Shown here piece after piece: positions 5,467-12,098 of a DNA stretch of 64,000 bases. Source of the stretch: Herminiimonas sp. (GTDB lineage Bacteria; Pseudomonadota; Gammaproteobacteria; Burkholderiales; Burkholderiaceae_D); the NCBI GenBank assembly GCA_027310305.1, contig DAIDBD010000007.1, positions 1-64,000 of the forward strand, read 5' to 3'. The position numbers and the translations under genes were made by a program. The notes under the pieces are model-generated. The model was not told the origin of the DNA. It made no database searches and saw only the letters and a program-made list of their open reading frames with translations. Position 1 is the stretch's first letter. Each line of letters opens with the position of its first letter.

Positions 5467-6398
5467 ATGTTGAGCACAACCCTGGAACATGAAGCCGTCA
5501 TCATCGGCAGCGGATTCGGCGGTGCGGTGATGTGCGCGCGTCTGGCAAGGCAATGGCCGGGCCGGGTGCTGCTGCTGGAGCGCGGCAAAGCCTATCCGAT
5601 GGGCGGCTTTCCGCGCAGTCCGCATGACCTGGCCGACAATGTCTGGTGCGCGGACGGCGACGTCAGCTTTCAAGGACTAGCCGCATTCGGCGAATTCTTC
5701 GCCGGCAAACTGTGGGATGTGTATGGCCCGCATTTGCCGTCGGCGTCCAATCAGCCGCAGCGCCGTTATCCGAAGTTCACGACCGAAGGCGTCACCGGCG
5801 CCGACATCGGCATGCATCCGTTCAACACCGCCGACGGCCTCGGATTGCAACTGACGCGTTTCGCGCGCGTCCCCAGCCCGGCTGGTCCGTCAGCAAGCTG
5901 CTGGCGCTGGCGGCGGACCTGACGCATCAGGAATGCGCGTCGCCGGAATGCCACATGCTGAGCTTCATGTGGGGCAGCGGCCGGCCCGCGCTGTTCAATC
6001 ATGCCAACCTGGCGCCGGAAACCCATGACCGGCTGGGCGACCTGTTCGGCGGCGCGCCGCTGCATTACTACCGCCATATCAACAAAATGGTGAACAGCGG
6101 GCACAGCGCCGTCAAATTCGATCCAGCCAATCCGCGCTACGCTGTGTTGCCGGACAATTATCTGACGCATGCCGCGCAGATCGGCACGCCGATTCTGTTC
6201 ATCCAGGGCCAGGACAATCGCGTGTTCGCCGATTCCAATATCCAGTGCCACGCGCGGCTGGAAGCCATCGTGCCCGGGCGGCACAAACTGCATGTCTTTC
6301 CGGGCTATGGCCATCAGGATATTTTCATGGGAAAAGAGGTGCATCTCGACATCTTCCCGCATCTGATCAAATTCCTGCGCGGGCACTGCCATGACTGA
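5467..6398 (+). pseudogene. Remnant of GMC oxidoreductase fused to alpha/beta hydrolase
   Basis: The 5' frame (5467 to about 5870) starts after GGGAGG and encodes an FAD-binding Rossmann motif, AVIIGSGFGGAVMCARLA, followed by RGKAYPMGGFPRSP. It then jumps, at about residue 60, to sequence belonging to the middle and hydrolase part of the family (KLWDVYGPHL, TTEGVTGADIGMHPFNTADG). A one-base frame change at about 5865-5880 leads into a second frame (to 6398) encoding the C-terminal hydrolase end: PGWSVSKLLALAADL, ASPECHMLSFMWG and VFPGYGHQDIFMGK. Intact members of this cholesterol-oxidase-like family are about 1100 residues, and only about 310 codons remain here. The GMC catalytic domain is deleted. 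It was the first gene of a pair with the phosphoesterase remnant that overlaps its stop codon. Confidence 0.75.
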
Positions 6399-6689
6399 AC
6401 CGAAGCTGCCGCCGGGTCTCGTCATGTGGCCCGACAGCGGCGCGCCGCGCAATCGCCTGTGCATGCTGATCAGCGATATTCACTGCACCGATCGAATTGC
6501 TGCTGGTGCTCAACGGCGATACCGTCGCTCTGATGCAGCAGCAAATGGGCGGAGGCAGGCGTCTATCCATGGCATCGCGGCGATCCGCGCTTCACCGGCA
6601 TCGTGCTGGCGATCACGATGCCGGACAATGGCTACCGCTACTATGCACGCGATCTGACCAGTTGGAGCGACCGCCGCGATCGCTGGTGA
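6391..6689 (+). pseudogene. Remnant of calcineurin-like metallophosphoesterase
   Basis: The start codon overlaps the stop of the preceding remnant (ATGACTGA), a sign of former translational coupling. The first frame encodes a typical beginning, GLVMWPDSGAPRNRL then MLISDIHCTD, the DxH metal motif of calcineurin-like phosphoesterases. From about 6490 another frame gives LLLVLNGDTVALMQ, matching the GD(x) second motif. A further frame from about 6565 to 6689 encodes a plausible native C-terminus (VYPWHRGDPRFTGIV ... LTSWSDRRDRW). The GNH and histidine metal motifs are gone. Intact relatives are several hundred residues long, so most of the gene is deleted. Confidence 0.6.
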
Positions 6690-8827: not shown

Positions 8828-9192
8828 TCACATCCTGTTTTTCCTGGAAAGCCAGTAATCCAGCGAGATTTCTCCGGGGCCGAATGATTGAATGCGAACA
8901 AGCCGAGCGCTGCCGGCCGGGATAGCAGTCCGGCGAACAGCAGGATCGGCAGCGCCAGTTCGCCGGCGGTTCCCATCAATGCGGCGATTTCCGGCGGCAG
9001 TATCGGCACCTGGTATTCATCGCGAAACAATGCCAGCGTTGCGCTCCAGTCGCCGATTTTCGTCAGCCCCGCCTTGAAAAACTGCCAGCCGACAAACAGC
9101 CGCAACGCCAGGCTCAACAACGAGCCGCCCCAATCAGTCAGTCGCGCATCGAAACGGGACAGGCCTTGATGAAAACGCAGGATGTTTTGCAT
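8828..9192 (-). pseudogene. DoxX-family membrane protein with internal deletion (bufD-like)
   Basis: The frame from 9192 encodes the first part of a DoxX protein: a cytosolic start (MQNILRFHQGLSRFD), a helix with ALRLFVGWQFFKAGLTK, and ELALPILLFAGLLSRPAALGL. After GLFAFN the frame breaks at about 8883. In another frame the normal C-terminus, GPGEISLDYWLSRKNRM and a stop at 8828-8830, follows at once. About 40 codons, covering the last transmembrane helices, are missing, so the protein should not fold in the membrane. DoxX genes are the usual fourth member of bufferin operons, and this one lies 19 bases after the bufBC gene, which fits that role. The unmatched in-frame extension to 8734 is an artefact of the deletion. 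Confidence 0.75.
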
Positions 9193-9211
9193 TTGATTTG
9201 CATTGGCTCTT

Positions 9212-10845
9212 TTATTGATTGATCGATGAATCGGCGTTGCTGAAAACAGCATGTTGAAGCCACTGCCGCAAATGAGAGCCGAAATCGAAATCCGGTTCGA
9301 TTTCCAGCGCCGCATCCAGCGCTGCACCGAGCGCCAGTCCCTGCTGCAAGCCCGACAATGCCGCGAAGGCGCCCGGCGTCAGCAACAGCACATCGGCCTT
9401 CCATTGCGGCCGCACGATCAACCCATGATTGCGATGGTCGATCCGTGCCGGAAAATCATTTCCCCATCCCGGTTGATGGGCTTGCCATACTTCCACCACT
9501 GCCCATTCCGACGCAATCAGCCGGCATGCCGGATGCAATGACAGGCGCGCATTGTCCAGTTGCTCCGGCAATAGCGATGCGATACCGGCCGCATTGACGG
9601 GTCGCGCATCGGCAGCATAATGCGCGCAATGATGCGCCCATTCCAGCGCAGCCATATCGGGAAAATACGGATACTGCGCGACATGCGGAAAGTGCCGCAA
9701 AAAATCGGGAAAGTGCGCGCCGAATTGATTGAGATCGCCGCTTTGCGATGGATGCGCCTTGCCGTAGGCGCGGGCCAGGCCGTTGAAAAAATCTTCACCT
9801 ACCAGCGCCTGCAATACCGGATAGGCAGAACTCAAGGTTTTATGCCACGCGCTGCTTAAATTGCCGCGATACAGAGACAGACGTTGCTCGGCAAGCGGGG
9901 CACTGTCTTTGAAAAGCGATAGCGCTTGCGGTCCGGTTTGCGCGTTGAACAGCGCATCGGAAAAAGCCAGTTGGACGTCTGCAAGACGGATCGTTGCAGC
10001 CGTTTGCTGTGCACGTGCTGCGACTTCGCGCGCCCGTTGCGCCTCGGCCAGCAATACATCGAGTGCGGGAATGTCGGTATCCCATTCGATCAGCGTCGAT
10101 ACCGGGCCGAAGCGCCGCACCGCAGTTTCATACAATGCCCACACCGATTCCGCGACGCGGTCGCCGTGATTGTCGATCACGGCATCCGGCGTGACCAGAT
10201 GTCCGGCCAGATGCATTTCACCGACCATGTGCGGCGCGATCGCATCGAGCGCCGCCAACGGATCTTCACCATGATTGCATTGATTGACGAACAGGTTGTT
10301 GATGTCGAGCAGCACGCCGCAGCCGGTGCGCGTCGAAACCGATGCGAGAAATTCCGCTTCGCTCATCGCATCGTCGCGGAAACGCAGGTAAGTCGATACA
10401 TTTTCGAGCAGGATCCGTCGTCCCAGCACTTCCTGCATCCGGTCGACCCGTTCGCATACCAGGTTCAGCGCTTCCTGCGTCAACGGCAGTGGCAGCAGAT
10501 CGTTCAACTGGCGATCATGCACGGCGCCCCAGCATAAATGTTCGGAGATGATTGCCGGCTGAATGCGATTGACGGCATCGCGCACGCGCTGCAGGTGAAG
10601 TCTGGAAAACCCATGCGCCGAACCGATGCCCAGTCCGACGCCGTGCAGGCTGATCGGATAATCCCGGCGTAACTGTTGCAGTACATGCGCGTCCCAGCCG
10701 CCCGGATCGAGATAATTTTCGGTATGGATTTCCAGCCAGTCGACCGCCGGGCGATGTTCTAGAAATTCCCGATAATGCGAGCCCGCAATCCGACCCCAAA
10801 GCCCAGCCTGGGAAAAAACGGCTGGCTGTAGTCCGGCTTCGGCAT
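9212..10845 (-). pseudogene. bufB: Fused bufferin maturation protein BufB-BufC (DUF692-DUF2063), frameshifted
   Basis: The start at 10845 lies after an AAGCGGAG site, 32 bases beyond the bufA stop. The first 21 or so codons ([20 protein letters not shown]) match the start of DUF692 proteins. At about 10778-10779 one base is missing, so translation stops four codons later. The rest is open in the shifted frame: DUF692 TIM-barrel motifs [50 protein letters not shown] and [10 protein letters not shown] (about residues 25-280), then directly a DUF2063 domain (about 290-530). DUF692 enzymes are multinuclear iron enzymes that modify cysteines of peptide precursors, and DUF2063 is their partner. Normally these are two genes; here no stop separates them. 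A sequencing error at the frameshift cannot be excluded. Confidence 0.75.
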
Positions 10846-10877
10846 GGCTCCGCTTGAGGGATGGCTGAAGAGTCCGA

Positions 10878-11159
10878 TTACTTCTTCTTCATCGCAGCCA
10901 TTTTGCCGCCCATTTTTTCGCAGGTGCCTTTCGCGACATATTTCCAGTCTGTCGGATCCATGTCTTTCTTGGCCTGGCCTGCACAGGAATGCGCGCCGGT
11001 GGTGCTGGCGCAATCGTTCTGGCCGGCTTTGGAAATACCGTAGCATTTTTCCTTTTCGGCTGCGGGAGCGGCGGTGTGGCCGGCGGCTTGCGCGGTACCC
11101 AGGCCGGCGGTAAATACGGTAGCGAGAGCGCTAGCGAGCAAGGCGTGACGTTTGTTCAT
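10878..11159 (-). CDS. bufA: BufA1-type bufferin precursor (DUF2282)
   Basis: A 93-residue secreted peptide precursor. It starts after an AAAGGAAA ribosome-binding site. Residues 1-25 form a signal peptide ([16 protein letters not shown], ending AQAAG), followed by a short Ala/Pro linker and a core with four cysteines in [35 protein letters not shown] and GTCEKMGG. This is the DUF2282 pattern of bufferins, in which some cysteines are converted to copper-binding heterocycles by BufB/BufC; the peptide is exported to buffer copper. The precursor is intact, but the maturation gene that follows carries a frameshift, so the product may stay unmodified. Encoded upstream of bufBC and doxX on the same strand. 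Confidence 0.85.
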
Positions 11160-11456: not shown

Positions 11457-12098
11457 ATGACCAGATTGATTTATATTGCCGACCCCATGTGCTCATGGTG
11501 TTACGGTTTCGGCCCGGAATTGTCCGGCCTGCTGGATGCATTGCCCGGCATCCCGGTGGAGATCGTGGTCGGCGGCTTGCGCGCCTATAACAAGCAGGTA
11601 ATGGATCAGGCATTGAAGGCAACGCTGCTGTCGCACTGGCGCCATGTGGAGCAGGCAAGCGGATTGCCTTTTTCGGAAGGCGGATTGTCGCGCGCCGGCT
11701 TCATTTACGATACCGAGCCGGCTTGCCGGGCGGTGGTAACGGCACGCATGCCGGACTTGAAATTGCCGCCGTCTGCGCCGCTCAAAGTGTTCCATGCAAT
11801 TCAGCGGACTTTTTATGCGCAGGGGCTGGACGTTACCCGCGGCGAGATACTGGCGGAGGTGGCGTCAGCCGCTATGGCCGACGACGGCTATCCGATCGAT
11901 GCCGCTGCATTTCATGCCGTGTGGGCAGATGAAAAAACCAAGGCGGCCACGCGCAACGATTTTGCACAGACCCAGCGTTGGGGCGTCTCGGGTTTTCCGA
12001 CACTGATACTGGAGCGGGGAAAGGAGCTGAGTCTTGTTGCATCGGGCTATACGCCGGCGGCAGCCATGCTGGGACGCGTGCGGCCAATGCTGGAGTAA
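11457..12098 (+). CDS. DsbA-family thioredoxin-fold oxidoreductase
   Basis: A 213-residue protein of the DsbA/FrnE-like class. It starts at 11457 after AAAGGAGAACGCA. The thioredoxin strand ends in YIADPMCSWCYGF, giving an active-site CSWC at residues 12-15, followed by the inserted helical domain and the cis-Pro loop WGVSGFPTLIL near residue 180. It has no signal peptide and so probably acts in the cytosol on thiols or as a glutathione-dependent isomerase; the exact substrate cannot be told from sequence. It is a single gene, convergent with phaB, with a long hairpin between them. The CxxC is complete. Confidence 0.85.
   Translation: MTRLIYIADPMCSWCYGFGPELSGLLDALPGIPVEIVVGGLRAYNKQVMDQALKATLLSHWRHVEQASGLPFSEGGLSRAGFIYDTEPACRAVVTARMPDLKLPPSAPLKVFHAIQRTFYAQGLDVTRGEILAEVASAAMADDGYPIDAAAFHAVWADEKTKAATRNDFAQTQRWGVSGFPTLILERGKELSLVASGYTPAAAMLGRVRPMLE

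Follow-up and report, generated by a model that had tools for sequence, protein, structure and literature searches.

The window analysed here, 64,000 nucleotides of Herminiimonas sp. DNA taken as a whole, carries on its minus strand, at positions 8828-11159, a bufferin-type operon that profile matches and translations resolve into the order bufA-bufBC(fused)-doxX. Its precursor gene is intact and both genes behind it are damaged, which raises the question whether the bare precursor peptide is kept for a use of its own, or whether the whole trait is in the course of being lost. This question is already in print. A DUF2282 precursor gene without an MNIO gene occurs in 21 of 4072 complete genomes, and for these rare genomes a use of the unmodified peptide itself has been raised (Antoine et al. 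2025, PMC12452194, Table 3 and Discussion); the locus described here adds one possible, very recent case. In FonB, a related MNIO, a change of a proposed catalytic residue left the peptide unmodified (PMC13097082). In the literature consulted, including the available portions of PMC12452194, PMC13097082 and PMC13038864, I found no description of an intact precursor accompanied by a broken bufferin enzyme; the pseudogene named in the accessible part of the last of these is ccoN and not a bufferin gene.

The core of a bufferin cluster consists of genes for a precursor, an MNIO, a DUF2063 protein and a DoxX protein, with an RRE-type domain in the partner protein as a further feature (PMC12452194), and bufferins are encoded by the gig operon (PMC13192273). 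The window shares the order precursor, MNIO, DUF2063, DoxX with the Buf1 (DUF2282) clusters or gig operons of Caulobacter vibrioides and Cupriavidus metallidurans. It differs from them in that its BufB and BufC are fused, as they are in many relatives, and in that its bufBC is frameshifted and its doxX truncated. The reading that I moderately favour is that a canonical Buf1 cluster has very recently lost its function. The starting state would have been an ordinary Buf1-type operon, a form that is common in relatives; the deletion of one base near codon 22 of bufBC would very recently have cost this operon its maturation enzyme, and an internal deletion of about 100 nt its DoxX. BufA, if expressed, would then be exported unmodified, lacking the thiooxazole copper ligands.

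The bufA gene (10878..11159, minus strand) encodes a Buf1 (DUF2282) precursor of 93 amino acids, complete as the earlier note had described it. It scores 87.6 bits against PF10048, for which the cut-off is 22.4 bits (the query lacked the first Met, here as well as in the searches for relatives), and shows no departure at any of the 20 columns that at least 95% of 109 homologues have in common. The N-terminus looks, by eye, hydrophobic and like a Sec signal. The translation contains four cysteines; a crude count that includes the signal-peptide region finds exactly four in 33 of the 109 homologue translations, which speaks against a simple four-cysteine rule. Divergent from bufA lies a gene for a DsbA-like thioredoxin-fold protein (PF01323; window 11457-12095, plus strand), which I did not see at the corresponding place in the list of open reading frames of the related genome G002.

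Downstream of bufA, the MNIO (BufB) and its DUF2063 partner (BufC) lie directly adjacent in a single frame (9212..10780, minus strand), which is open across 558 codons without a stop and matches first PF05114 (331 bits) and then PF09836 (78.5 bits), as one polypeptide. What this frame lacks is its beginning. The expected ATG at 10845 opens a different frame (10759..10845), which runs for 22 N-terminal codons, of which the last 13 or so are clearly homologous to the enzyme N-terminus, and then for six foreign codons to a stop. The homology switches frames near 10779, and at this place (10776..10783) the window is one base short of the intact homologues, so that the uninterrupted enzyme frame of a Buf1 cluster is interrupted here, and the frameshift placed at 10778-10779, near codon 22, by the earlier note is borne out. 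A scan for start codons finds no ATG, GTG or TTG in the enzyme frame above a GTG at 10585. Starting there would cost 27 near-invariant residues in addition to the four upstream of the lesion, and since this GTG, the one standard start that follows near the 5' end, thus drops 31 near-invariant residues, a working BufBC is probably not made.

The fused form of the gene is itself common in relatives. A single match spanning MNIO and DUF2063 is seen in at least 17 of the 119 genomes searched (own genome included; among the matches listed), whereas in G061 (L131) BufB and BufC occupy two unfused frames; in the available text of PMC12452194 I found no mention of such a fusion. The named relatives retrieved with the enzyme are mostly Oxalobacteraceae, a family to which the organism itself probably belongs as well. 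One record titled as a Bifidobacterium breve metagenome-assembled genome (L063, CAMCSO010000029.1) holds a fused bufBC 57% identical to that of the window, with bufA upstream, and is probably a mislabelled or contaminated bin. The most similar BufBC among the 119 genomes, 75% identical and syntenic, is that of G002 (contig C165, locus L115). There, bufA and the fused bufBC stand at the same place as in the window, bufBC is intact with its N-terminal segment read in one frame, and doxX is found neither in the operon nor elsewhere on that 89-kb contig. The bufBC of G002 ends 6 nt from a convergent neighbouring gene.

Earlier, it had also been suggested that enzymes encoded elsewhere might mature the peptide. 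In the entire assembly (4.01 Mb in 129 contigs, 96.7% complete), DUF2282, MNIO and DUF2063 each give one match, all of them at the bufferin locus, and the proposed genome search for another bufB or bufC found no second MNIO or DUF2063 match at E 0.001, about 3% of the genome possibly being missing. A second MNIO or partner that stands in from another locus of this assembly is therefore rejected, and of the options offered by the earlier note the loss of the whole trait fits best.

The first 102 codons of doxX are in frame (9192 to 8887, minus strand) and match the DoxX family PF07681 with 54.6 bits, after which about 100 nt are absent. In 31 of 34 distinct relatives 34 residues separate an Asn from a Phe/Tyr-Gly (the pattern failed in three), compared with 2 nt in the window. 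The C-terminal tail FGPGEISLDYWLSRKNRM and its stop survive past the deletion, out of frame (8828..8884). Relatives have a DoxX of 152-159 amino acids from the start of the match (n=37 rows measured, of which 34 distinct ones served for conservation and spacing), a length that the window's frame does not reach. The loss in doxX that had been noticed before is thus confirmed, although its size is nearer 33 codons than the 40 or so first estimated. Among the best 80 of 150 related loci, 29 have doxX downstream of bufBC at a distance of at most 400 nt, in 50 it was not found there, and in one the contig is too short; with no doxX found after bufBC in those 50, the gene is dispensable. The DoxX family has three matches in the assembly, the copy at the bufferin locus included. 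Because of the other two (G000:C32:3604-3849 and C26:6201-6440), the damage in the cluster need not have deprived the genome of a DoxX-type function.

How long ago the damage arose can be judged from what remains of the two genes. For BufBC, 92 homologues were chosen and one identical duplicate was dropped, leaving 91 distinct intact fused enzymes; at the 131 columns that are at least 97% conserved among them, the window departs three times, G002 likewise three times, and the others between 0 and 14 times. With five choices of outgroup, amino-acid changes found only in the window or only in G002 number 45/35 (outgroup L011, which assigns more unique changes to the window), 30/36, 33/38, 19/20 and 14/17. 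Past the lesion, no stop has appeared in 522 codons, although one would arise from 158 of the 4698 possible single changes. By simple arithmetic, this sets an upper limit of roughly 90 on the neutral changes that followed the lesion, compared with about 370 differences from G002. In doxX, the first 100 codons show no departure at the 31 columns conserved in 34 homologues. On this sequence evidence neither remnant shows relaxed selection, and both appear to have been under normal constraint until very recently. Since they show no relaxation, the lesions would be either very recent or errors, and the pristine frames fit a young mutation or a sequence error alike.

The cluster is not the only damaged place in this part of the contig. 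At 5470-6686 of the window (plus strand), a three-gene operon has shrunk to 1.2 kb through several internal deletions, whereas its counterpart in G016 takes up 5.2 kb of long open frames. All three genes are long open frames in G016 (L156:875-6098) and also in G090 (L158). The pieces of the first two genes are 75-85% identical to those in G016 and those of the third 44-69%; the first gene has a weak PF13450 NAD/FAD-binding match. The presumed loss of function in the bufferin cluster sits in a stretch where a neighbouring operon also collapsed by deletions, and all lesions found in the window fall within 5.4-10.8 kb.

According to the chief alternative, the missing base in bufBC, and perhaps the gap in doxX too, arose as an error of sequencing or assembly in a cluster that is in fact intact and functional. 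I consider this unlikely but well worth weighing, as unrelaxed remnants are just what it predicts, the lesion in bufBC concerns a single base, and the lesions, known from one assembly of one strain, are situated at 5-11 kb from the end of a contig. However, the site in bufBC is not a homopolymer, and a 100-nt deletion in doxX next to an operon with several deletions is atypical of read errors. Moreover, an assembly-wide high rate of indel errors was rejected, as it was not seen in either of two comparisons, of which the one by codon usage has limited reach. For 28 frames of G002 an alignment to the window reached at least 150 bits, and two of these showed a second frame. One is bufBC; in the other, nearly all of the second match (23611-23477) falls upstream of the place where the gene probably starts (23498). 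Comparing window frames with G002 instead flagged none and missed bufBC too, probably because its first 22 codons are too short. When 164 kb of this contig were screened by codon usage, 68 adjacent frame changes on the same strand came up, and in two of them the second piece had no start. One of the two is bufBC; the other concerns two ordinary genes, where the start is located a little further down. This screen, which required pieces of at least 90 nt, is not exhaustive, because it missed the collapsed operon at 5470-6686. No within-gene frame change other than that in bufBC was thus seen in either comparison. Frame errors being uncommon here, a real lesion is favoured, though without proof.

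A second alternative is that the precursor has been retained for a use that the peptide has when unmodified, such as the binding of metal through its bare cysteines. The unblemished state of bufA would agree with this, and it is the possibility raised by Antoine et al. for the rare genomes with a precursor and no MNIO (PMC12452194). Those genomes resemble the window in having a precursor without a usable enzyme, yet the window still carries a well-conserved enzyme gene that a single base interrupts, which would make the loss recent. Because the remnants of the enzyme and of doxX are unrelaxed, the time elapsed is too short for the persistence of bufA to be meaningful, or for such retention to have been put to the test. 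Chance alone also goes a long way: bufA is a small target (282 of about 2380 nt), and by arithmetic two random lesions would spare it about 78% of the time, or in roughly three cases out of four. Elsewhere the precursor is seldom seen alone. A bufA match occurs in 59 of the 119 genomes searched (own genome included), and in 58 of these 59, compared by hand, an MNIO match accompanies it; the exception, G076, is 68% complete and has its bufA near a contig end. A distance rule places bufA directly upstream of bufBC in 78 of the best 80 of 150 related loci; these loci were chosen by similarity to the enzyme, and broken copies may be under-represented for that reason. I therefore regard a use of the bare peptide as very improbable, and it is equally hard to believe that the locus shows, as a natural experiment, an unmodified bufferin that is exported and kept for a bare-cysteine function after the loss of the strain's only MNIO and of the cluster's DoxX. 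The earlier note had held that a precursor kept after the loss of its enzyme would be informative. Comparison with relatives did show bufBC to be one base short of the intact copies, but lent this argument no support, as the remnants are unrelaxed and many relatives with an intact enzyme have no doxX beside it.

Finally, it is the least probable of these explanations that the enzyme is still made, through a ribosomal or transcriptional -1 slip (for instance at the T6 run that precedes the lesion on the coding strand, from where, as I read the sequence, such a step would reach the pristine enzyme frame) or from a non-standard start, as a slip at that run would replace a segment holding four near-invariant columns (G, G, L, R), the enzyme frame offers no standard start above 10585, and none of the 91 distinct homologues needs recoding, each having been found in one frame with a start codon.

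This leaves, as the preferred reading, a canonical Buf1 cluster that became non-functional very recently, in which bufA would be intact because it is a small target and the damage is young, rather than owing to a demonstrated role of the bare peptide. By itself, the strain is no proof that the bare peptide has a function, and the general lesson is that a recent lesion next to an intact precursor says nothing on selection for the precursor. If the lesions are real, however, this would be a naturally BufBC-deficient isolate, which could serve as a comparison for the action of unmodified BufA.
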